Of a stretch of DNA of 53,957 bases, positions 20,815 through 53,268 are shown piece after piece. Under the pieces are notes generated by a model. It did no database searches and was not told the origin of the DNA. It saw only the letters and a list, made by a program, of their open reading frames with translations. The stretch comes from a virus: positions 1-53,957 of the IMG/VR virus record IMGVR_UViG_3300028388_005701; one strand, written 5' to 3'. Position numbers and translations under genes: made by a program. Position 1 is the first letter of the stretch. Each line of letters opens with the position of its first letter.

Positions 20815-22863
20815 CTAGGAACTGTGCCAGACATATTTAGCGTTGCCACAGTTGTATGTTTTCATGAATCCCAGCTCGTCCATTATTGTAGTCTCTGATC
20901 TGGTATCGGTTTTACTAATTACACCTTTCTTCACAAGATTCTTTTTAGAAAATTGCCTGCGATTGTACCTGAACCCAAACACATCGACATAGAAATAGCC
21001 TGGAACTGTATTATGGCTAAATTGCATACCCAGTTTATCATACACCGATCCGGTAAAGAAGTCAAGGAATGCGTAAGTATAAATCTCTTTGGGATCATAA
21101 TTACGCAAGAAATACTTAAACATCTTAGAGGCACCACCAACCACGGAAAAACCGATACTGGTAGCTAATCTCCCAATCTCCCAAAGAGATTCAGATTTAT
21201 TCCTAAGATTAAAGGTCATCACCGATCTAAGTTCATCTTCGTAGAATAGACCAAGATAGACAGATCCTACTAAGTGACCCTGGATATGATTTTTATCCAG
21301 GAAATCCTTGACATCCTTGAATTGTAGCACACGGAGATCAGTCTTACGAGCATAAATACGAGTACAATTCTGTAGGATAGCATTGGATATAATGGACTTA
21401 ACGATATCTTGACGATAAATCCAATCAGTCTCCCAAATCTGGATAAGACGGATACCTTTTGATAGAGCATGATTGTATTTTTCTTGGTGGTAATTACGAT
21501 GCTTTATTCTGGTGCTATGCCAGTATGAACCGTTGTACTCGATACCAAGCTTAAGCTCCGGAAGGTAAATATCAATCTCATAGGGGTTGATTGGTGATCT
21601 GGTATTGGTCACGACTTCACCATTATAGATAGATTCGACCCAGGCCGCTACATCTTTCTCTGCTTGGGATCTCATCTCACCGATTGGATTACAATGAGTG
21701 CAAAGTTCTATCCCATGTTTAATGACCCTATCCCTGGCGAACCCCGATGAAGTAGTGAATATTTCTCCACACTTCTTATGTAGGAAGGACACCTCTAACT
21801 TATTCTTGAAGGATACCACTTCATATGGCAGATTTGAATCTATAAACCTGTTATTCCAGATTCTAGATGCCTCAGTCTTAGATTTAGTTCTCAGATACGG
21901 ATCATTAAATGGATGCATACCGGAGTCTTGCATTTCTTTGTACAATTTTTGGAATCCAGCAGACTGCATGGGATGTTCTGTGCCCCATCTTTCCAGACTG
22001 GCTCTCTTGTATTCATTCTTAAAATTATCGGTTAGTACATACCATCTTTCGCCGTACTTCTCAAGATTGGCTTGTTCCAATTTCTCCCTAAGTGGACCGT
22101 GATTCCAGTTGTGCTCAACGCCGTACTTTTCGACCATGGTAGCCCTTTGTTTCTTGATAGCATCATTATCTTTTATGCCTTTAGAGATTTTATCGCGCAT
22201 CCATTCATCTTTACAATCGTTACATGGCTTATATGCATGGCCCACACCGTTGTAATTTCTGCCAAAATCAGCATCATTTTCACCACAATATTCGCATTTG
22301 GGTATGTCCTTTATACCATGCACAAGATGGTGAATACGGCGACTATTGGTACTGTCATCCGGCAAGAAGCTGGTGTATTTTTTAATAAAGGTGTCTAACT
22401 TCATATTCCTAACGGTTATACCAACTTTCTTAGTACCATAAACCTGTTTAAGAATATCAGTCAATTCCTTTTTGGTATAAGATACGTCTTTCTGCTCCTC
22501 TGGTAATTCATAGCCATCGCCGTACTGGGATTGTTTAGCCCTTAGTGCTCTGTAAGCTTTAGAGCACTCTTTGCTACAGGGCTTATAGCCATAAGTGGTA
22601 CCTTTGTGTTGATTTTTAATCACCACACCAATCTTGCCCCATTTGTTACTAACACCACCGCAGCTAGGGCATTTACCTGGATCAATATTATTTTCTATAA
22701 CATGCCAGCACCTTCTGTTAGTCTTAGCATCATTGGGTAGGAAATTAGTAAAAAACGTAAGACGCTCCAGCAATTCCTTACGTCTATTGACCATATTAGT
22801 CAGATTGGTAGGTGATTGCTCTTTGAGAGATATTAATGTTGATCTTAGTTCGTTATAATCCAT
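20815..22863 (-). CDS. putative Vsr-like (EDxHD-type) homing endonuclease
   Basis: 682 residues from ATG 22863. Two Cys4-type modules lie at about 65-100 (CPSC...CSKEC) and 190-217 (CEYC...CNDC), each after an SRR/NRR-xxH motif. Three short repeats follow (EKYGVEHNW, EKYGERW, ERWGTEHPM) of the kind used for DNA contact. A nuclease core sits at about 400-450: SQAEKDVAAW, YEIDIYLPELKLGIEYNGSY, WHS, then WETDW. The E/D, IEYNG and H fit the Vsr-like fold of the phage homing-endonuclease family described with fractured, split-intein genes. Free-standing, next to the capsid genes; it likely spreads itself by cutting related phages. The C-terminal 150 residues resemble a GNAT-like or repair domain but were not assigned. 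Confidence 0.75.
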   Translation of the reverse strand: MDYNELRSTLISLKEQSPTNLTNMVNRRKELLERLTFFTNFLPNDAKTNRRCWHVIENNIDPGKCPSCGGVSNKWGKIGVVIKNQHKGTTYGYKPCSKECSKAYRALRAKQSQYGDGYELPEEQKDVSYTKKELTDILKQVYGTKKVGITVRNMKLDTFIKKYTSFLPDDSTNSRRIHHLVHGIKDIPKCEYCGENDADFGRNYNGVGHAYKPCNDCKDEWMRDKISKGIKDNDAIKKQRATMVEKYGVEHNWNHGPLREKLEQANLEKYGERWYVLTDNFKNEYKRASLERWGTEHPMQSAGFQKLYKEMQDSGMHPFNDPYLRTKSKTEASRIWNNRFIDSNLPYEVVSFKNKLEVSFLHKKCGEIFTTSSGFARDRVIKHGIELCTHCNPIGEMRSQAEKDVAAWVESIYNGEVVTNTRSPINPYEIDIYLPELKLGIEYNGSYWHSTRIKHRNYHQEKYNHALSKGIRLIQIWETDWIYRQDIVKSIISNAILQNCTRIYARKTDLRVLQFKDVKDFLDKNHIQGHLVGSVYLGLFYEDELRSVMTFNLRNKSESLWEIGRLATSIGFSVVGGASKMFKYFLRNYDPKEIYTYAFLDFFTGSVYDKLGMQFSHNTVPGYFYVDVFGFRYNRRQFSKKNLVKKGVISKTDTRSETTIMDELGFMKTYNCGNAKYVWHSS

Positions 22864-23166
22864 GCTTTTATTGATTATAAATATGCTACAAACCAAGGTT
22901 TCTTAATCAGAGAAAACCATTAATTATAGTGGTTACAGATCAGTGAAAAATATGCAGGCTGTGCGGTTAATAACCTCCATCCTCAAAAGTGATATTGATA
23001 CCTATTATTGTGGTAATCGCTATGATTAAATTTAAAAACAGAGGACGGAGAATATAGTACTCACATTAAAGGAAAGAGTGGGGAGAGTAATATGAAAATG
23101 GCCCAGAAACCCCGTCATTAGCGGGTTCTGGGCCATAAAATATACTATGAGAAAACTATTCTTCTA
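22864..23166. other. intergenic stretch between endonuclease and capsid genes
   Basis: About 300 bases with no convincing gene; the best frames are under 25 codons without a start context. It contains the hairpin at 23100-23134. A TATAAATA at 22876-22883 on the plus strand has no plus-strand gene behind it and is probably chance. The endonuclease promoter could lie here but was not identified. Confidence 0.5.
23100..23134 (-). terminator. strong hairpin after the major capsid gene
   Basis: Arms GGCCCAGAAACCCCG (23100-23114) and GCGGGTTCTGGGCC (23121-23134) pair over at least 9 perfect GC-rich bases plus an imperfect extension, loop TCATTA. On the minus strand it lies 33 bases after the capsid stop and is followed by ATTTTC, a weak T-run. 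Likely ends or stabilises the abundant capsid transcript. Confidence 0.75.
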
Positions 23167-43465: not shown

Positions 43466-45970
43466 TTATAACGCGGTAAACCCACCAATAAGGGGATCAC
43501 CAGATGCCGTCAATGTTATACGATTAATGAATCTTCTAGCTACTGCTGTTGGTTCAATAATAACATCAACAATAGCAGTGTTTTCTCTAATGATAGAATC
43601 GGTGTTGTTGGATCTATCAAAAACCACCTGATAGTTATCTCTAATAACCGAATAAGCGGTTTGGATCTTAGATAGGTAGTTATTTAATAAGCTACTAACT
43701 TCAATCCTGAGAGGATCATCGTTAAATTCGAACACGTAGTTTTCTAGTATGTTTTCGATATCAATAGTCAACGATATCAATAAATCCCTTACGTGCAGGT
43801 TGTTAAGCGCTGATCTAACAGTCTGGTAAGATGTTTGATTACCATAAACGGTAATGTTACCATTTTGCCGCTGGATTATGGGGTTAATACCCTTGGTTTC
43901 CAACAACCCTCTATCTTCTTTATTAAGTTTATATTCAACCCCTATCAGGTTACCAGAAGTACCATTATATGACAGAACACCACGTCTGTTAGCGACTGGC
44001 TTGAATGGTTGACCAGCTCTGTATTTTCTCATGAAAGCATTACTAACTAACGCAGCTGGTGGAAACACCACGTCGTTATCTCCATCCCTGATAATAACAT
44101 TAGGGGCGAAGAACCCAACAAACGATGCACCGTCGGTTTCCAGCGGCATGGTATACAAAAACGAAGGATTCTCTGATCTATTACCACCGTCTTTGATGTA
44201 TTGCACATCTAGTATCGGCAAAGGATCAGCGGCTGTAGGTGTGGTAGTAAATCTGGGATTTGTAGAATCTGCGAACTCCTTGAACGAAGGCGCGTTGAGC
44301 AGAGCTAGGCATCGCTGTCTATCCCTGGCCAGCTTAGCAAGATAAGATTTACTACCAGTCTCCAAACCGTTATTAAATGTATCGACTATATAACGGAAGT
44401 TGATCATATCGGGATCTACTAATGCATCCCTCATATTAGTTCCAGTCATCACTGAATAGATATCCTTTACACGATCATTGGTGCCATTGGGCATGTGGTG
44501 GGCTTTATAGGCAAACCCAGCCTGGTATATCATGTTGTATTCAGTGATAAAATTCTCGAAATCCTTATACCTAGTGATGACATCACTGCCACTAATATTT
44601 TTGGCGATCTTTATTTTCTCTGTACAGGTGATTTCTATGGTGTCATTAATGTCGTCATTATCAGTATCGATATTGACCATGGTATCGATCCTGGTCAAAA
44701 TCTCATTACCATCATCGTCTAGCCCCACTAAGAAATCATCAAATGATACCTTACCAGCATCAGCAATGGCTATCCTCACCACGTTATCGGTAACTTTTTC
44801 AGTAACGGCTATATCAGTATTAAGATCCCCGATAACCGACACTATGTTAATAGAATCAGCAGCGGTGATAGCATAGCTATTAGAATCAAATGTAGTGGTT
44901 ACGGCTGGTGCAGTACCAGCTCCTGCGGCTGTTGACAAATCAGCATCTGTGTATAACTCTAACTTCAATATATCTCTATAGTCATCAGCAGCATCCACAC
45001 CACCAGCAGCGATAGATTCTACAAATTTGATATAGTAGGTATCGGTGCTGTCAGTAATTGTGTCACCATTAGCAAGCAATCCTGCCTGATAATCGGTGTA
45101 TATAGGATGGAACTTATCGACAACATAATAGGTATCAGTGCCGTCTGCTGTAAATCTATCCGGTGATGGAGTGTAGGTAACCTCATCAGTGCCAACACCA
45201 GTCAGAGCAACATCAACGAAAGAACCAGAGGTACTGGTTTCGCTAGCCTTAAAATCGTTAGTTGCGACTATGGTGATCAGTGAACTGGTTTTGGTAACCG
45301 AAGTTACCTCTAAAACAGGACTAGCTACTGGTACACCAGCGGTATTACCAGCACTTGTCCTAGTGCCAGCTATCAAATCACCAACAGCTGCATTGGCCTC
45401 AAGCCATGCGAAATCGGTATGGGCGTCGGTGAAGGTAATCGTTACCTTCCCAGTTGCATAATTTATGGTACGACCAGCATCGTCATCAAGTGTCTGGTCG
45501 GTATTGGTAGCTGATTGGGTATAAACCTTATCCTCTTTGATGCGCTTCTTGTAAGAAAGGAAATCAACTTCAGACAGAGCTGTGTCAATTAAAGAGTGAC
45601 CCACCAAATCGAGGTTTTTGGTGTTAGTACCAAACTCTATAGCATTAATTTGCGATTTATCAACAGCACAAAGAATACCAAACCTAGTATACTGGTTATT
45701 AATAACATCCTCAATATAGTAAGGCACTCCCTGCTGGTCTTTGAAATTTGGTATCAAACACCCAGTGTATACTTGACGTAGATTGACTTCTGCCCTAGAC
45801 AGGAAATCTGTGAGTTTATCCTTTATTAATCCTTTAGAATTAAAAAATTCTCCATAAACCGGATCAGTATCAAGCTGTGAATATTTGTCGGGACCGAAGT
45901 TACCATCGATGGCAAAAACGTCAACAAAATAATCACTAATAAAATCATGGGGTTTCAGGTAAGGTGGCAC
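43466..45970 (-). CDS. tail sheath protein, C-terminal part (gp18-like)
   Basis: 834 codons from a GTG at 45970, but family motifs begin upstream in this frame: WYANDSVPPYLKPHDFISDY. The match shows the start lies within a longer gene whose N-terminal part is in another frame. VFAIDGNFG and TDFLSRAEVN are gp18-type. The C-terminal sheath core is NFRYIVDTFNNGL, LAKLARDRQRCLALLNAPS, AFMRKYRAGQPFKPVANRRG, and YQTVRSALNNLHVRDLLISL. About 300 Thr/Asp/Ala-rich residues around 150-450 form an inserted beta-rich domain absent from T4 gp18. Together with the N-part the sheath would be about 1,030 residues versus 659 in T4. Confidence 0.85.
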   Translation of the reverse strand: MPPYLKPHDFISDYFVDVFAIDGNFGPDKYSQLDTDPVYGEFFNSKGLIKDKLTDFLSRAEVNLRQVYTGCLIPNFKDQQGVPYYIEDVINNQYTRFGILCAVDKSQINAIEFGTNTKNLDLVGHSLIDTALSEVDFLSYKKRIKEDKVYTQSATNTDQTLDDDAGRTINYATGKVTITFTDAHTDFAWLEANAAVGDLIAGTRTSAGNTAGVPVASPVLEVTSVTKTSSLITIVATNDFKASETSTSGSFVDVALTGVGTDEVTYTPSPDRFTADGTDTYYVVDKFHPIYTDYQAGLLANGDTITDSTDTYYIKFVESIAAGGVDAADDYRDILKLELYTDADLSTAAGAGTAPAVTTTFDSNSYAITAADSINIVSVIGDLNTDIAVTEKVTDNVVRIAIADAGKVSFDDFLVGLDDDGNEILTRIDTMVNIDTDNDDINDTIEITCTEKIKIAKNISGSDVITRYKDFENFITEYNMIYQAGFAYKAHHMPNGTNDRVKDIYSVMTGTNMRDALVDPDMINFRYIVDTFNNGLETGSKSYLAKLARDRQRCLALLNAPSFKEFADSTNPRFTTTPTAADPLPILDVQYIKDGGNRSENPSFLYTMPLETDGASFVGFFAPNVIIRDGDNDVVFPPAALVSNAFMRKYRAGQPFKPVANRRGVLSYNGTSGNLIGVEYKLNKEDRGLLETKGINPIIQRQNGNITVYGNQTSYQTVRSALNNLHVRDLLISLTIDIENILENYVFEFNDDPLRIEVSSLLNNYLSKIQTAYSVIRDNYQVVFDRSNNTDSIIRENTAIVDVIIEPTAVARRFINRITLTASGDPLIGGFTAL

Positions 45971-45974
45971 ACTA

Positions 45975-46553
45975 TCATTTGCATACCATGGTTATATCAG
46001 ATTTCTTAACCAAAAATGTTATTGGTGTGTTGGATAGGTTAACCAGATTCAAAATATAATCGTTCTGCGCCTGCAGTCTAGTGGCCAGTAGATAATCTCT
46101 ATCGGCTGTCCAGAATCTCTCTTTATTGAAGTAGGAGCTGTACAGCTTAGATCCGGCGACGGGGTTAACCTCGCCAGTGGATGTACTGAAAGCATTATAA
46201 GATGCATAATCAGCGTCATATTGACCACCACTTTCTTGGTCCTGGGTCTTTAGTAAATTAAGGGCGAGAACTGGACCCTCTTCCAATGCTACCTGTAAGC
46301 TGCGGTGAAAGAAAGAACCTTTATTTTCAAGGGTTCTATCGATATCACCAAACAGCCTGATAGCCGTTGCGATATCGTTTCTCTCTATCAATACTGGTAT
46401 ATTGAATGGGCCTTTTTTACTGAAACCCACCACCAACCTCAAAATAGGCGATGTGTCCACCGCAGGTGATTGGGATTCATCCTGGTATACAGTATAAACA
46501 CCAGAGGCTGCATATTGATTAGAGTATAAGTCTCTCAATGTTATATTAGCCAT
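45975..46553 (-). CDS. tail sheath protein, N-terminal part (gp18-like)
   Basis: 192 residues: MANITLRDLYSNQYAASGVY, then RLVVGFSKKGPFNIPVLIER, ending FLVKKSDIT followed by an out-of-family tail MVCK and TGA. The next frame picks up at WYANDSVPPYL, so the gene appears broken by one base near 45985. In intact sheaths the 'V+KSD.T..WY...VP.YL.P.D' region is continuous. Contraction of the sheath drives injection, so a true null would be lethal. Assembly error, frameshifting or in-trans assembly must be considered. Confidence 0.82.
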   Translation of the reverse strand: MANITLRDLYSNQYAASGVYTVYQDESQSPAVDTSPILRLVVGFSKKGPFNIPVLIERNDIATAIRLFGDIDRTLENKGSFFHRSLQVALEEGPVLALNLLKTQDQESGGQYDADYASYNAFSTSTGEVNPVAGSKLYSSYFNKERFWTADRDYLLATRLQAQNDYILNLVNLSNTPITFLVKKSDITMVCK

Positions 46554-46584
46554 TTTCTAATTTCTTTTAGTTAAATTGTTGTCT

Positions 46585-46592
46585 TATTTATC
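46585..46592 (-). promoter_or_regulatory. GATAAATA box ahead of the tail genes
   Basis: Lies 32 bases upstream of the sheath start; identical to boxes ahead of the head operon and holin gene. Candidate late promoter. Confidence 0.35.
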
Positions 46593-46638
46593 TTAACAGC
46601 TTAAATTAAATTTAGCGAATACATAAGGTAAAATACTG

Positions 46639-46902
46639 ATGAATATACTAAATGGCCAGGACAACCAGTTAGACATTATTGATAAATGGTTAGAAAGCGA
46701 ATACGGAACAGAAAAGATGGGTAGGACTTGGGATGGTAGAAATTTAATTATATCCATGAAAGATGGTAATATACTGAAGTTTACCAGATCTGAACTGATA
46801 TCAAAAGCAGTTTTACCGTTGCCTAAAAGAAAAAATGAAATATTGGATTTCTTTCCAGAATTAACCGAGTCAATAGATTCTATTCAATCGGATAGCAGGT
46901 AA
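46639..46902 (+). CDS. hypothetical protein, 87 aa
   Basis: MNILNGQDNQLDIIDKWLES start; small, soluble, with a strand pair (RNLIISMKDGNILKFTRSEL) and an acidic end. Divergent from the sheath gene and convergent with the terminase gene, overlapping its end by 19 bases. Not recognised. Confidence 0.55.
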   Translation: MNILNGQDNQLDIIDKWLESEYGTEKMGRTWDGRNLIISMKDGNILKFTRSELISKAVLPLPKRKNEILDFFPELTESIDSIQSDSR

Positions 46903-48905
46903 CCATAATCGTCGGCTATATCGGCTATGTCCTCATCATCAGTGCTGATACCCATTTTTTCATTTACCACAGTAATAAATTCATCAGGTAAATGGGGTAA
47001 TAATTCCTCAATTTGATCAACATATTCATCACTATACATATACAGCGCCATATTACGAAACGTATCGAAACAGTCATCCTGGCCTATTTGTGATTTGTAC
47101 TTACCATTTTCGTTTTTGGCCATACTCAACGACTCATCAACAGATACCTTCTCTGTTGGCACTAGCCTACCAGCATCTATGTAATTTTTCGCTAGCTTAA
47201 CACCCTGATCAACGTTAGGGCTAGTCATCTTGAGTCCTGGCCTCTTAGTAACACTATCTATACGATGATAGAATTTTACTATAGTTTCTTCAGAATCAAA
47301 CTTGCTCCTGCTGTCCTCCATGTTCTCCAAAAGACTGATGAAGTAATTACCCTCTTTATTCATTTCCAATACCATATTCAGGTTAACAGCATGGGATAAC
47401 TCTAACTCCTCATCATCATCAGTGTCACTATAATGCTCAATAACTCTTTTAAGACTACTTGGTGTTTTGGTGATTTCAGGTTCTTCTACAGCAAAACTAT
47501 CAACTATCAAATAGTACAGAAGTGCAGCAACATTCGGTATGTCTATAACATTGGACCTGAACATACCGACCTGCACAGCCTTAAAGAAATCAGCAAACTT
47601 GGTAAATATTTTCTGTGAGTCTATTTCCCTCCTGCTCATGGGTAAAATCTGGAAGATATTGGCCACGAAAAAGTCACCACCACCACCCTCTGATGTATCT
47701 ATGCTGATGACAAACTGATACCTATTATCCGATAGTTTAGAAAGATCAAAATTTTCATACCAAGTTATATAATAATCTGGCCTAGCATTGTCCATGATAT
47801 CATCAAGGGAATCACCCATTCTTTCTATCCACCTATCAAGCATATCAGACATATCTTTGTGGACAAATGATTGGTTTAGAGCTTTCATTCTTCTAGATGT
47901 GTTTGATTTAAATAATAATTCACTACCAGCAAGAAACTGATTGCCGTATTCTTGATTGAAATCTTCTACAGAACCCAAATCAGCTATGGTATTTTTTCTC
48001 CACTGCTCATCCCTACCAGGAACATCATACCAGTCTATTCTTATGGGATTATAGAAATTGATACCATTGAGGGCATTTATATAGATCTCATAAAATTTGT
48101 TTAGCCCTCTTGGTGTGGATGTTATGACAACCTTTGATATTTCCGAAGATGATATGGTTGGATAAACAGTCCTATAGAACTTATTGAGATACCTATAATC
48201 TATCAGTGCAAATTCATCCATATACAGTAAATGTACGGTAAAAGATGCACCGGAGTTAGATGTTGTGGTCTGAGCATGAATTCTACAGCCATTATCAAAC
48301 TTCATGCTCATGACATTCTTAACTTCAAACCCAGGTTTCATATAGAATGGTAGGTTTTCTATGATGACGCCTATTTTATCCATAAGCTCCTTGACCTTAT
48401 CACCATTCTGGGATATAACCATAACATTTCTGTCTTTATGGAACAGAACGTACCAGACTATATAAATGGCACTAATGATGGTATTATGACTAAGAATGTT
48501 GTTGGTGTAATATCGATGATCTGGGTGATCGACCGTAGCATCAAACATCGATTGCCTATACCCAACATTCTCCATAACAGCAACCCTACTAAGACCAGTA
48601 GTAGTAATTATCCTATCACCCACAGACAAGTCGGCAATCCTGATTTCATTTGCATTACTATCGAAAACTAGGTGATCATCAGCAGCATACAAATAATCAC
48701 CATTATCCAAAACCAAATAATAGGTTTCAAACAGCTTTGTTCTGTGTATGTGGGTCACCGGTTGATAACCGCTATCGGTAAGTACACTAACGCCGTTTAT
48801 GGTATGGGATGATACGATCTTGGTGGTTTCATCGCCATATTTCAACTTCTGTAACCAATACAGAACCTTCTCTATTATACTGATAATTATGCCCATAAAA
48901 AACAT
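46884..48905 (-). CDS. terL: large terminase, C-terminal half with C-terminal split intein
   Basis: Starts at ATG 48905 (MFFMGIIISIIEKVLYWLQK); ATG 48896 is an alternative. The first 141 residues are the C-part of an intein ending in YYTNNILSHN, followed by the extein TIISAIYIVWYVLF. The extein has the ATPase Walker B LLYMDEFAL, coupling motif VVITSTPRGLNKFYE, and a nuclease domain with FVISIDTSEGGGGDFF and IGQDDCFDTFRNMALYM. Joined to the other half by splicing it gives a protein of about 644 residues (T4 gp17: 610). This motor packages DNA and cuts concatemers. It has no Walker A of its own, so it needs the N-half. Confidence 0.9.
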   Translation of the reverse strand: MFFMGIIISIIEKVLYWLQKLKYGDETTKIVSSHTINGVSVLTDSGYQPVTHIHRTKLFETYYLVLDNGDYLYAADDHLVFDSNANEIRIADLSVGDRIITTTGLSRVAVMENVGYRQSMFDATVDHPDHRYYTNNILSHNTIISAIYIVWYVLFHKDRNVMVISQNGDKVKELMDKIGVIIENLPFYMKPGFEVKNVMSMKFDNGCRIHAQTTTSNSGASFTVHLLYMDEFALIDYRYLNKFYRTVYPTISSSEISKVVITSTPRGLNKFYEIYINALNGINFYNPIRIDWYDVPGRDEQWRKNTIADLGSVEDFNQEYGNQFLAGSELLFKSNTSRRMKALNQSFVHKDMSDMLDRWIERMGDSLDDIMDNARPDYYITWYENFDLSKLSDNRYQFVISIDTSEGGGGDFFVANIFQILPMSRREIDSQKIFTKFADFFKAVQVGMFRSNVIDIPNVAALLYYLIVDSFAVEEPEITKTPSSLKRVIEHYSDTDDDEELELSHAVNLNMVLEMNKEGNYFISLLENMEDSRSKFDSEETIVKFYHRIDSVTKRPGLKMTSPNVDQGVKLAKNYIDAGRLVPTEKVSVDESLSMAKNENGKYKSQIGQDDCFDTFRNMALYMYSDEYVDQIEELLPHLPDEFITVVNEKMGISTDDEDIADIADDYGYLLSD
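48483..48905 (-). other. C-terminal split-intein segment (blocks B, F, G)
   Basis: 141 residues. After a hydrophobic/amphipathic helix (MGIIISIIEKVLYWLQKLKY) comes the Hint fold: VLTDSGYQPV, YLVLDNGDYLYAADDHLVF (block B with DDH), ADLSVGDRI, then FDATVDHPDHRYYTN and ILSHN (blocks F/G ending His-Asn). The next residue is Thr, the required +1 nucleophile. Block A is missing, being in the other gene. A 141-residue C-part is far longer than the 35-40 residues of ordinary split inteins. Confidence 0.9.
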
Positions 48906-48937
48906 TTTTGGGGCATACTGTAAGGTATGCCCCAAAA
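48906..48937. repeat. perfect 13-bp inverted repeat abutting the start codon of the C-half
   Basis: TTTTGGGGCATAC and GTATGCCCCAAAA around the loop TGTAAG. On the minus strand the second arm ends at the base before ATG 48905. Polarity is the reverse of a standard terminator (T before, A after on both strands), so it may act on translation or RNA processing. Confidence 0.8.
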
Positions 48938-48947
48938 CTAGTCAAAA

Positions 48948-49337
48948 TTATGACAGTTGTGCCTGGTCAGTTGGCTGCTCGGGTTCGATAGGATCCTTTT
49001 TCTCCTTTCTTACCTTTTCTAGATAAGACCAACCACCACCCAGTAAACCTATGACGATAGCGATAGCAGTTAATACTATATCTTCGTTATACCAGCCGCC
49101 TAACACCCCGAAACCAGCCAATGCTGTGAGGATGTGGCGTATGGTACCCCATAGTTTGTCAGTCCTTTCTTCTTTATCGGTGGAATTCCATGAGAACACC
49201 AATCCGGCGACCATCAAAGAGCCACTCATGATAAATTCTGATATGTCTTCAGACACTGTACCCTGCCACACTAAAAAACCAGATAGGAAGGTAACAACAT
49301 GCCTAACCAGACCTAACCATTTTTCGTTACTATTCAT
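48948..49337 (-). CDS. holin-like protein with tandem duplication
   Basis: ATG 49337 (MNSNEKWLGLVRHVVTF) is preferred over a TTG upstream. Two similar halves: WLGLVRHVVTFLSGFLVWQG..SEDI and LWGTIRHILTALAGFGVLGG..NEDI, each followed by a second hydrophobic span and a W-S motif. This gives four TM segments and a charged tail (KVRKEKKDPIEPEQP). The RH-x-x-T-x-x-x-G pattern resembles the Pam3-gp28-type phage holin family. It would permeabilise the inner membrane for lysis. Lies between the two terminase halves. Confidence 0.75.
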   Translation of the reverse strand: MNSNEKWLGLVRHVVTFLSGFLVWQGTVSEDISEFIMSGSLMVAGLVFSWNSTDKEERTDKLWGTIRHILTALAGFGVLGGWYNEDIVLTAIAIVIGLLGGGWSYLEKVRKEKKDPIEPEQPTDQAQLS

Positions 49338-49377
49338 AATGAACAATGTTTATTGATGTTTATTAATCTATTCAGCT

Positions 49378-49385
49378 TATTTATC
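49378..49385 (-). promoter_or_regulatory. GATAAATA box ahead of the holin gene
   Basis: Same 8-mer as before the head and tail operons, 41 bases before ATG 49337. Candidate late promoter. Confidence 0.33.
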
Positions 49386-49392
49386 TGAATGA

Positions 49393-50172
49393 TTAATAAA
49401 CACTAACCGTTTTTTTGTTGTCCATATTCCAAAACTTAGTACCTCCGTGGCTTATCAACCTGTGTCTATGAAAATGACCAAAAAACCAATTGTCAACTGT
49501 TGATTGGAATTTGTTATACACAGTGGTTAGGAATTTTCTTTCATTGATGATGTCATTGGCTATGTATGTGTTGCTAATACTAACCTGTGCGGTGGGTGGT
49601 ATGATGTGAGGGGCTGTGTGGGTGGCAATCATATTTATGTCAAAATGCTCATTTATATACCCCAGCCATTTTTTGTTGGGTTCAAAAGATTCAAATGGCC
49701 ACCAATTGCGGCCATACTCCCTTTTATCCCTATCGATGCTGGTAGCACCACCCAGGCAAAACGCAGTTTTATCTCTCCATTCTAGTATAGAATAATCAGC
49801 AACTAAAATTATGTTAGACAGTGATCTAATGTATTTAACATCGGACTTTATTTTATCGACACATTTTTTGGTATATTCCATTCTTTCGAAAAAGGCGCTG
49901 AGCTTAGACTTATTGCTGGTGAACAGAAAGGGATAGTCATGGTTACCCCTGATAATATAAAGATAGGAATTCTTTGAGCAGAGTATTCTATTCAACTTAT
50001 TAAGTATGTGTTTGCCCTTAGACAGATCAAAATGCCCGTTAGGGAAGAAGTCACCAAGCTGTAATAGATTAGTGTTTTCAGGTAGGTATTTTATGTGGTG
50101 GTAATCCCCGTGGAGATCACCTATGACTTTCAAATCATACTTGCTAATCAGCTGATGTTTGACCAATATCAT
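49393..50172 (-). CDS. calcineurin-like metallophosphoesterase
   Basis: 259 residues with the metal-binding motifs in order: VIGDLHGDYHH, QLGDFFP, IRGNHDYPF, MIATHTAPH and FFGHFHRHR. Such phage enzymes hydrolyse phosphoester bonds in nucleotides, RNA ends or phosphoproteins; the substrate is unknown. Lies between the exonuclease and the holin gene, inside the split terminase locus. Confidence 0.85.
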   Translation of the reverse strand: MILVKHQLISKYDLKVIGDLHGDYHHIKYLPENTNLLQLGDFFPNGHFDLSKGKHILNKLNRILCSKNSYLYIIRGNHDYPFLFTSNKSKLSAFFERMEYTKKCVDKIKSDVKYIRSLSNIILVADYSILEWRDKTAFCLGGATSIDRDKREYGRNWWPFESFEPNKKWLGYINEHFDINMIATHTAPHIIPPTAQVSISNTYIANDIINERKFLTTVYNKFQSTVDNWFFGHFHRHRLISHGGTKFWNMDNKKTVSVY

Positions 50173-50199
50173 TAGTTATGATTATACTAAGGTTAGCTA

Positions 50200-50886
50200 T
50201 TACTCTAGGTATTTTATGACCCTTTCATAAGCCATCATAAGAGTGGTAACATCTCCCTCACAATACTCTTGGATAGCATCAAGATCCTGGTCATCCCAAT
50301 AAACTGTATGCAGGTCAGCCCCACTCATTTTTTCTTTGGGTGATGGTATACCAAGCACCTGACACAGTAAATCTAGTGTGCACGCATTCCTACCACCAAA
50401 CTTCCACAGCTCGTGTGTGTCAACCAGGTGCTTAAGTTCCCATGGCTTTTTACCAGTTGTGTTTATGATTTTGGGAATCTTTAGGCCCTTTATGATAAGT
50501 CGTTTGACTAAAAATGGAACGTCAAAATTCTTAATATAATGCCCACAAAGTTTGTGGATTCTCAAATCGTTATAATGAGTATCTAGTAGATTTTTGATGC
50601 TGACCAAAACACTCATTTCATCTTCATCACAAAATGATTTTAGCTTGTAACCACCGCCATTTTTGAAGCCAAATGTTGCGCAAACTATTTTTGAGAATTC
50701 TGGATGAACCCCAGACATTTTGTTATATGATTCTTCTGGTGTTTCATAATCCCCACCCCTGGAGTAATATTTTTTGTGTATATCATCCCACGCGTATTTC
50801 ATCCCGCTGTTTAATCCATTATAGCTTTCTACAATAGAAACTGTTTCTAGGTCAAAGAAAAGAAAGTTTTTATCCAATGTCGCCAT
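50200..50886 (-). CDS. DEDDy-type 3'-5' exonuclease
   Basis: 228 residues. Exo I: NFLFFDLET (Asp, Glu); Exo II: LCGHYIKNFDVPFLVKRL (Asp); Exo III: YCEGDVTTLM (Tyr, Asp). A PolB-type proofreading-like exonuclease without a polymerase domain, frequent in Bacteroidota and their phages. It may trim 3' ends in repair or recombination. Its first 40 bases overlap the end of the N-intein gene, so it was either inserted there or has truncated the N-intein. Confidence 0.85.
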   Translation of the reverse strand: MATLDKNFLFFDLETVSIVESYNGLNSGMKYAWDDIHKKYYSRGGDYETPEESYNKMSGVHPEFSKIVCATFGFKNGGGYKLKSFCDEDEMSVLVSIKNLLDTHYNDLRIHKLCGHYIKNFDVPFLVKRLIIKGLKIPKIINTTGKKPWELKHLVDTHELWKFGGRNACTLDLLCQVLGIPSPKEKMSGADLHTVYWDDQDLDAIQEYCEGDVTTLMMAYERVIKYLE

Positions 50887-51026
50887 GATCTCAGGTAATT
50901 TATTAAATCCATCAATAAAAATTCGATAGTATACCTATTACTACCCATTTTGTATAACTTATATATGGGTATGGTTTTGTTAATACCATTAATTTCCACA
51001 TCAATTGTGGTATCCCACGCAACACA
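50847..51026 (-). other. N-terminal split-intein segment (block A)
   Basis: 59 residues beginning CVAWDTTIDVEINGINKTIP and IYKLYK: block A with the catalytic Cys 1. It is similar to the short N-part of the AceL-TerL atypical split intein as I recall it (CVYGDTMVETEDGKIKIEDL). A hydrophobic helix (IEFLLMDLINYL) follows. The last 13 residues (SWRHWIKTFFSLT) are an out-of-frame reading of the exonuclease start and are probably not native. Confidence 0.88.
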
Positions 51027-51362
51027 CTTACCAGATTGTCTGGAAGACAATAGTATATTCTTGCGATACTTATCAAACTGTATTAGGCAGGTTTTTTGGT
51101 AATCTCTGAGCTTAACTATCCTTATACCCTCATCAGTCATCACATTAGCATAATTTTCACCAAAGTATATAGGATCTAATGCACATTTAGCTTTCTCTTT
51201 TAACTCAAGGGATGTGTACCCGTAGTTAATGTCAGGCGCTCTCAGTGCGGTATTGTTTTTAAAGAATGGTGTTTCTTTCGGTTTTACTCCGTTTTTTTCT
51301 ATGCTTCTTAAGAGTTCTTCGACCTTTGCGGTGGTCCAAACTTTATTGGACGATATTACCAT
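50847..51362 (-). CDS. terL: large terminase, N-terminal half with N-terminal split intein
   Basis: 171 residues. The first 112 are the start of a T4-type large terminase: FGENYANVMTDEGIRIVKLR, DYQKTCLIQFDKYR and NILLSSRQSGK, which ends inside Walker A. Residue 113 is Cys, opening the intein. Without the ATPase core this half cannot work alone; it must trans-splice with the product of 46884-48905. Its start overlaps the upstream gene by 20 bases, its end overlaps the exonuclease gene by 40. Confidence 0.9.
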   Translation of the reverse strand: MVISSNKVWTTAKVEELLRSIEKNGVKPKETPFFKNNTALRAPDINYGYTSLELKEKAKCALDPIYFGENYANVMTDEGIRIVKLRDYQKTCLIQFDKYRKNILLSSRQSGKCVAWDTTIDVEINGINKTIPIYKLYKMGSNRYTIEFLLMDLINYLRSWRHWIKTFFSLT

Positions 51363-53268
51363 TATTTAGTATTTTCAGTAGTTGATTAGTATCAAGCCTC
51401 AATTTACCTGCCAGCCTGCTGGCATTTATATCATTAACAACTTTACCATCATTAATCACTAAGTTATCAACATCTGTATTTTCGTATATCTTGGTGAATT
51501 TTCTAGACATAAACACCATAAAGGATTCTCTCAGATCACGCAGGTTGGCCAATCTAACACCATCAATATTTTCTCTGATTTCATATATCCAGCTGTAATT
51601 TTCACTAACAGCCAGCCTGTTGACATCGACACCATTTACAGAGATAATGGGTGTACCAGACTCATTAAAAGAGACAGTATTATAATTACCACCGACATCC
51701 TTACAATAAGCTACTATGCTGCCAGCTTCCGGCATTTCAGAACATTCAATGAGTATATTAGTACCCTCAGTTATTAGCGTGCTGAAGGCTTTGTATTCAA
51801 AAGCTATTGAATTATCAGTTAGCAAGCCCATGATACCAGACAGCTCACCAACTGCATCGCAGCCAGTAACAATCACCAATCCATAATGGCTGCTGTTAAC
51901 GTCGTTGTCCAGCACCATGATGTTATCTGGGTTTATATCGTAATAATCACTATTCTTTACTAGGTATTTATACAGATCACTGCCATTCTTGAAAGAATTA
52001 TGATCAACCAGTATTGACCAGTTATCAATCTCGGATATGTTCGGATGTCTTAGTATTTCACTGGCATTGTTGATATGAGATATAGCACCAAGATCATAAG
52101 ATTCATTGGCGGCTACCTGCCCCTCAGGATTACCAGCATCACCATTTAATTCAGCATCGGTTTTACCTTTACGACCATCTGTGTACAAAATACCACCCTC
52201 TCTATCCTTGCGTATCTCCAAACTTAATTCATTTGGTACAAGATGCCCAATATTGATGTGAGATATGTTATACTTGCTAGTCATATCGTCTATCTTGCTG
52301 ACCGCCTCAAGGTATTGGTCATTGCTTATGAGAGGCACAATAGTAGACTCCCATTCATCATCAAATGAGGACTGGTTATCACCAAGATGCTTACTGAGTT
52401 CAGACCTTATCTGCATGAAGGAATGCAGTTGGTGGTTTTCACCAAATAGTGCTATGTCCTTTAGTTCGCCAATGGCCGCTGATAGTTCTTCTTCATTCAT
52501 CTTGTTAGCAGCAGCATATATACTCATACTGCCAGTCGGATCATGCTTATTAAGATAAGAGTCCATTATAACATCGAATTTGTTCCTGCTATCATCTGTT
52601 ACCACATAGTCCAGGTATTCAAGATATCTAGCCATTTCGCTAATATCGGCGCTGGGTGTGTAGTCAGTTCTGGCGAATTTTTTAGTCATCTCCTTAATAG
52701 CCATACGCTGCTCATGCTTATCATCAAGCACATTGAATCCGACATCATTGCCAACAGAATCCAGCAATCTCAAGAATTTATCAGTAGCATCACCCTCGTA
52801 GTCATCAGTAGAGAAATCAACCTCTGGGAATTCATCTTGTAAATCCACTAATCCATCGTTGAATTTATCTACCATCTCCTTGGTTATATCACTGGACTTA
52901 TACTTTTCTCTGTCGCCATTCAACACCTCCATAGAGTTATCGTTGAACAACTTTAATAGTTTAGTCTTAGTGTAGGCAATCTTTTTCTTGGGTGTCTCAC
53001 CACTAGCTTCATTAAGCGGATTCAGACCACCTATCTGCCCGACTGCTTGGAGGACTTTTAGAAAGGCATCTGTGGGTTCACCCTCGTAATCGTCAACCTC
53101 AAAATCAGTGTCTGGGTGCTTTTTCTTAAGCTGATCCATTTCTTTCTTGAACAAGTTGACCATAGCATCAGTTATATCTGATTCCTTATATTTCTCTCTT
53201 TTACCATCTGCAATCTCTATGGAGTTTTTGTTAAGGAGACCAAGCAATGTCTTTTTATCATACTTCAT
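51343..53268 (-). CDS. repeat-containing protein of unknown function, 641 aa
   Basis: Two N-terminal repeats of about 85 residues: LLGLLNKNSIEIADGKREKY..SDIT...DYEG and LLKLFNDNSMEVLNGDREKY..SDIT...DYEG. After repeat one comes NPLNEASGE, a prohead-protease-like site LNE/A; later AANESYD. The rest is acidic and mixed. Expression just ahead of terminase suggests a head or packaging role, possibly processed in the prohead. No family recognised. Confidence 0.68.
   Translation of the reverse strand: MKYDKKTLLGLLNKNSIEIADGKREKYKESDITDAMVNLFKKEMDQLKKKHPDTDFEVDDYEGEPTDAFLKVLQAVGQIGGLNPLNEASGETPKKKIAYTKTKLLKLFNDNSMEVLNGDREKYKSSDITKEMVDKFNDGLVDLQDEFPEVDFSTDDYEGDATDKFLRLLDSVGNDVGFNVLDDKHEQRMAIKEMTKKFARTDYTPSADISEMARYLEYLDYVVTDDSRNKFDVIMDSYLNKHDPTGSMSIYAAANKMNEEELSAAIGELKDIALFGENHQLHSFMQIRSELSKHLGDNQSSFDDEWESTIVPLISNDQYLEAVSKIDDMTSKYNISHINIGHLVPNELSLEIRKDREGGILYTDGRKGKTDAELNGDAGNPEGQVAANESYDLGAISHINNASEILRHPNISEIDNWSILVDHNSFKNGSDLYKYLVKNSDYYDINPDNIMVLDNDVNSSHYGLVIVTGCDAVGELSGIMGLLTDNSIAFEYKAFSTLITEGTNILIECSEMPEAGSIVAYCKDVGGNYNTVSFNESGTPIISVNGVDVNRLAVSENYSWIYEIRENIDGVRLANLRDLRESFMVFMSRKFTKIYENTDVDNLVINDGKVVNDINASRLAGKLRLDTNQLLKILNNGNIVQ

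Follow-up and report, generated by a model that had tools for sequence, protein, structure and literature searches.

A phage large terminase gene broken at its ATP-binding loop by a predicted split intein with many relatives at the same site

Introduction

The IMG/VR virus record IMGVR_UViG_3300028388_005701, analysed here over its entire length of 53,957 bases (hereafter the window) and treated as a genome fragment, probably derives from a large, T4-like phage. Its large terminase (TerL) gene, terL, lies in two separate halves. We hold with considerable confidence, on the strength of sequence comparison and structure models, that a natural split intein of class 1 breaks terL at the Walker A motif and that the halves are rejoined by protein trans-splicing. 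The N-half would carry the start of TerL and the N-terminal intein part (IntN), the C-half the C-terminal intein part (IntC) and the rest of TerL. Judged by its sequence relatives, this split intein is less singular than first thought and is part of a large family.

The fractured terL locus

The two halves and their parts are arranged as follows.

50847-51362, minus strand: terL N-half open reading frame (ORF), 171 amino acids (aa), being an N-extein of 112 aa plus an IntN of 59 aa
51027..51362, minus strand: N-extein, the first 112 aa of a T4 gp17-type TerL, ending ...NILLSSRQSGK, Walker A through its Lys (best PHROG terminase match, E = 9.8e-17)
50850..51026, minus strand: IntN of 59 aa, starting Cys1 CVAWDTTIDVEINGINKTIPIYKLYK..., with block A followed by a tail that is hydrophobic and may be helical
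46884-48905, minus strand: terL C-half ORF, 673 aa from its ATG, being an IntC of 141 aa plus a C-extein of 532 aa
48483..48905, minus strand: IntC of 141 aa, opening with the hydrophobic helix MFFMGIIISIIEKVLYW, followed by blocks B (AADDHLVF), F (FDATVDHPDHRYYTNN) and G (ILSHN)
46887..48482, minus strand: C-extein, TerL residues 113-644, with Thr+1, Walker B LLYMDEFA, coupling motif and nuclease domain (PF03237, E = 1.2e-15)

Both halves are assigned to the large terminase by PHROGs, and the C-half by Pfam as well; an alternative upstream start of the C-half, a TTG at 48935, is possible. The N-half leaves the terminase after SSRQSGK and continues with block A from a Cys, while IntC ends NNILSHN and the terminase continues from TIISAIY. 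The ligated product is predicted to have 112 + 532 = 644 aa, with the junction ...SSRQSGKTIISAIY... An earlier reading, made from the sequence alone, had described the N-half in these terms, had set IntN at about 59 and IntC at 141 residues with the split between blocks A and B, and had expected a ligated chain of about 644 residues. Each of these points is upheld: both lengths are exact, and an alignment with L099, a natural relative encoded in one ORF, agrees with the position of the split.

The junction itself can be placed exactly. The match of T4 gp17 to the N-extein ends at gp17 chain residue 191 (SRQLGK), and that to the C-extein begins at residue 193, which corresponds to C-extein residue 2; Thr+1 therefore falls on gp17 residue 192 without a gap. 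In 60 of the 72 loci that have both parts, Lys112 and Thr+1 are contiguous to the base, and among the remaining 12, five carry the intein and seven have alignment slips of 3 to 21 bases. This exact alignment of gp17 and the relatives puts the intein insertion between the Lys and the Thr of Walker A, so that the proposed joining of SGK to TI would restore the P-loop. The joined exteins give SRQSGK followed directly by T, and gp17 matches the C-extein at E = 7.9e-22. The Walker B DE is in place, and so are the acidic nuclease residues D402, E513, D609 and D610, which are invariant (numbered as in the comparison that shows this).

Identity and predicted fold of the intein

IntN and IntC profiles were made from relatives, with the window excluded, and run over all 1,421 ORFs in the six frames of the window. 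In the N-half, the match to the IntN profile has E = 1.7e-5 and covers the first 28 residues of IntN; the C-half matches the IntC profile at E = 2.9e-47. The intein character of both segments is thus more than chance, and no further significant match to either profile was found among these ORFs. The Pfam family Intein_splicing reaches IntC at E = 1e-4, below the cut-off. The nucleophiles are those of class 1, with Cys1 directly after SGK and, in block G, ILSHN followed by Thr at +1. Blocks B, F and G, ILSHN and TIISAIY are all present in the C-half as the sequence-only reading had stated, except that block B is not of the form T-x-x-H: it reads A-D-D-H, with Ala in place of the Thr, and neither this Ala nor the His varies across the aligned family.

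Searched against the PDB, a family profile of 43 members (IntC parts and three one-chain relatives) finds the inteins VidaL (7e-13), gp41-1 (1e-10) and CatC (1.8e-9), while the IntN profile, built on a short piece, matches no intein there. The best-supported reading is that the window halves carry a split intein of class 1 and Hint type, with predicted splicing activity.

Structure models point in the same direction. The folding alignment consisted of cis and IntC rows only, because MAFFT misplaced IntN against the one-chain relative, and L099 was modelled as a natural one-chain stand-in. Its AlphaFold2 model shows a Hint fold with a predicted local distance difference test score (pLDDT) of 86.6, and its best PDB matches by Foldseek are the inteins VidaL, Cat and gp41-1. 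Blocks A and B have a single long helix, residues 43-74, between them. When aligned with L099, the split members are broken past helix 27-37, in the region of helix 43-74 (L099 numbering). The AlphaFold2 model of the window C-half (pLDDT 74) has a helix at 2-17, the same strand order as L099 and then a gp17-like fold. In Foldseek it matches VidaL with a root-mean-square deviation of 2.2 Å over 103 columns, and gp17 at E = 3.1e-18. These models support a Hint fold for the intein of the window and its family.

A family of inteins at the Walker A site

At least 73 distinct inteins share this TerL site according to viral scans and a uniform re-annotation. All family counts given here are among the matches listed, two further viral scans included, and are not a census. 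The 73 comprise 55 split inteins with both halves visible, six cis inteins and 12 with the N-half out of view, and the same split is present in independent contigs as well as in the named phage records LR756500, LR756501 and Atu_ph07. Cys1 is found in all 61 relatives with an extracted IntN, 63 of the 73 have Thr at +1 and the other 10 have Ser, and 68 retain His-Asn. We did not find this TerL intein family described in the openly readable literature, subscription papers aside.

In the published natural atypical split inteins, IntN measures 15-37 aa and the break follows either strand 2 or helix 1 (PMC13014065). The IntN parts of the present family (51 distinct sequences; the IntN alignment took 36) have a median length of 54 aa, with 50 above 37 aa, and they exceed the published lengths since the split of most members falls within an additional helix. 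Of the 51, 46 share the tail motif [KR]-x-x-[LI]-[YWL]; it is absent in L117, L219, L220, L223 and L229, in which IntN and IntC are without helices as judged by eye. The window IntN tail is hydrophobic and does not match the family tail motif. For the closest relatives of the window C-half, L002/L216 and L006/L215 (about 42% identity), no N-half was detected on their contigs of 38.6 and 33.6 kb, and their halves may lie far apart.

Several members of named phages deserve separate mention. In Vibrio phage VP-1 (L079, 1808-5150), TerL apparently has two inteins: a cis intein at Walker A and, farther downstream, another into which a GIY-YIG-like sequence and a break of the ORF intervene. In Agrobacterium phage Atu_ph07 (L082, 2549-4740), two separately annotated terL genes look like adjacent split-intein halves with Ser1. 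LR756501 at 700,211-701,023 (L086) and LR756500 near 193,359-193,871 (L077, 2333-3151) hold short, intein-less TerL ATPase paralogs in which the Walker A Lys is replaced by Ile (SRQMGIT, SRQMGIS); they are the sole other TerL-like genes found there.

The gap between the window halves measures 1,909 bases and contains three complete ordinary genes, just as had been noted from the sequence (1.9 kb and three genes):

50200..50886, minus strand: predicted 3'-5' exonuclease (DNA_pol_B_exo2; PF10108, E = 5.3e-14; phrog_25228, E = 5.8e-32), whose ATG overlaps the end of the terL N-half
49393..50172, minus strand: calcineurin-like metallophosphoesterase (PF00149, E = 3e-8; phrog_1649, E = 4e-18)
48948..49346, minus strand: holin of the Pam3 gp28 family (PF23987, E = 3.1e-13)

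Pfam and PHROG annotation of the gap gave no endonuclease match among these genes. Across the 55 split loci, a homing-endonuclease-like gene occupies the gap in 43, mainly Vsr/PF18741-like and otherwise of DUF7487 type or GIY-YIG; the halves are adjacent (at most 63 bases apart) in nine; and only ordinary genes lie between them in three, that is, in the window, in the 735-kb phage LR756501 (12.4 kb) and in L115 (5.4 kb).

In 2009, Dassa et al. reportedly described phage genes fractured by split inteins and accompanied by homing endonucleases of Vsr-like type, and the window could be an ordinary case of that type with nothing new to it, an explanation compatible with trans-splicing to which we give appreciable weight, somewhat short of an even chance. 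It draws on the frequency of endonuclease-like gap genes in the family and on the fact that split inteins in TerL (AceL, GOS) have been published (PMC11766414). It fits less well with the three ordinary genes that stand in the window gap instead of an endonuclease, with an IntN of 59 aa outside the published range, and with the conserved tail motif in the IntN of most relatives.

Proposed mechanism and competing explanations

Under the trans-splicing reading, the halves would be translated separately into an N-extein-IntN protein and an IntC-C-extein protein, and IntN and IntC would associate into one Hint fold. Cys1 would then attack the Lys-Cys bond, the N-extein would be transferred to Thr+1, and cyclisation of the terminal Asn would release a seamless TerL with a complete SRQSGK-T P-loop. 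A P-loop ATPase chain with the Walker A Lys and without the Thr that follows it is not expected to bind MgATP. Since Lys and Thr are on separate chains, splicing should be indispensable to a phage that has no other terL; neither half would bind ATP productively alone, and packaging would depend on trans-splicing. The complete motifs, the exact junction, the modelled Hint fold and the same break in more than 50 other loci, with Cys1 and a Thr or Ser at +1 retained, all argue for the trans-splicing that the sequence-only reading had put forward.

Several points weigh on the other side. The window IntN tail diverges from the family, the profile match ending with the first 28 residues. No other terL was found within the 54-kb window, which is a genome fragment, so that an intact terL elsewhere is possible. 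A search of viral contigs by exact 24-mers returned no near-identical record for an assembly check. Furthermore, the tail-sheath gene lies in two overlapping minus-strand ORFs, 45975-46553 and 43466-45970 (192 and 834 aa, each assigned to the tail sheath by PHROGs), which differ in frame near 45,980 through a real frameshift or a sequence error; errors or true breaks therefore do occur near terL.

One competing explanation is that the halves never splice, either assembling non-covalently or being the remains of a decayed intein and a defunct terL, with packaging carried out by an intact copy elsewhere. The incompleteness of the genome leaves room for this, and two huge phages with the same split have an additional TerL-like ATPase gene. 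On the other hand, non-covalent assembly would keep the intein in the active site, between the separated Lys and Thr of the P-loop, the splicing residues are conserved in the window and the family, and the extra ATPases, with Ile for the Walker A Lys and too short for a nuclease domain, look unfit to replace TerL. We consider it improbable. Less probable still is splicing at the RNA level, through a group I or group II intron, or an artefact of assembly: there are reports of group I introns splitting terL in other huge phages (PMC12363816) and of splicing of the terL transcript in ICP1 (PMC10448857), and no second record of the window phage was found in the 24-mer search, but Rfam, all families including introns, gives no match up to E = 1 across 46000-52000, the ends encode Hint sequence in which no motif is missing, the intervening genes are complete, and LR756500, LR756501, Atu_ph07 and independent contigs are split likewise.

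Origin and persistence of the split

Comparison across the family suggests an order of events in which a free-standing homing endonuclease inserts in the intein gene and is later lost, the split usually persisting. In the window, the endonuclease would have been lost from the break and its place taken by the three phage genes. In exploratory trees, the one-ORF members with the helix (L099, L213 and L180) nest inside split clades, and adjacent halves recur in several clades; as a lead only, this nesting makes fusion following endonuclease loss likelier than the reverse.

The hydrophobic helices flanking the break may help the halves to dock. More speculatively, and with the balance of our judgement tilted against it, the IntN tail and the IntC head could form a docking pair of amphipathic helices that stabilises the split, so that it persists after endonuclease loss, the halves can drift apart and activation of the motor needs the assembly of two proteins. 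If true, this would have let the halves come to lie 1.9 kb apart in the window and 12.4 kb apart in the 735-kb phage. The case is weaker for the window than for its relatives, since its tail lacks the family motif.

Other features of the window

48906..48937, minus strand: perfect hairpin with a 13-bp stem and a 6-nt loop, directly abutting the C-half ATG

The region of this hairpin has a folding energy of -25.9 kcal/mol over 71 nt (z = -4.66). It could be a terminator of the holin gene or a translational control element of the C-half. The idea that it is a shared family trait was rejected, no relative having a comparable hairpin before the C-half.

A homing-endonuclease-like ORF of 695 aa (20818-22902, minus strand; phrog_3339, E = 2.1e-104) lies next to the major capsid gene, about 24 kb from terL. 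It is kin to the terL-gap endonucleases of L228, L203, L179, L177 and L226.

Significance

The packaging motor of many phages, including ones of 735 kb and 462 kb, is probably made by trans-splicing at the ATP-binding loop. As such a motor is built from two ORFs, searches for a single terL ORF would miss or mis-rank these phages. The family also offers dozens of predicted natural split inteins, whose N-part is longer and whose helical tails are conserved, as candidate ligation tools, and it bears on how split inteins arise and persist after endonuclease loss.

Comparison with known systems

The window resembles the fractured genes of 2009 in that a conserved enzyme gene is broken by a split intein, and in most of its relatives the gap contains a Vsr/PD-(D/E)XK-like gene; unlike that layout, in which a free-standing homing endonuclease lies between the halves, the window gap is without one. 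The cis inteins of Vibrio phages Kuja and VP-1 share the insertion point, Cys1, HN and Thr+1, but they are read through in one ORF and lack helical tails. In Agrobacterium phage Atu_ph07 and the huge phages LR756500 and LR756501, TerL is likewise split at Walker A. Atu_ph07 differs from the window by its adjacent halves and Ser1, LR756500 by an endonuclease in the gap and the intein end SSQ, and LR756501 by the far wider separation of its halves and the intein end NLN.

Among characterised inteins, AceL-TerL and GOS-TerL (25/104 and 37/115 aa for IntN/IntC, both Cys+1; PMC11766414), together with the designed Cat, are alike in combining a phage TerL, a short IntN, a long IntC and a split between blocks A and B, and CatC is a sequence and fold match to the window family. 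The earlier assignment to an AceL-TerL-like type is therefore right as to the split zone and too simple otherwise, since the window has 59/141 aa, Thr+1 at Walker A (Thr or Ser in all 73) and helices added at the break, whereas AceL-TerL and GOS-TerL are not described with the helical tails that most window relatives have. VidaL, also atypically split, is the best PDB match by profile and fold, but it is split earlier, after strand 2 (S1), with an IntN of 16 aa (PMC13014065). The sequence comparisons thus give good support to viewing the window as a fractured gene combined with an atypically split TerL intein, most parts of which are known singly and which belongs to a large family.

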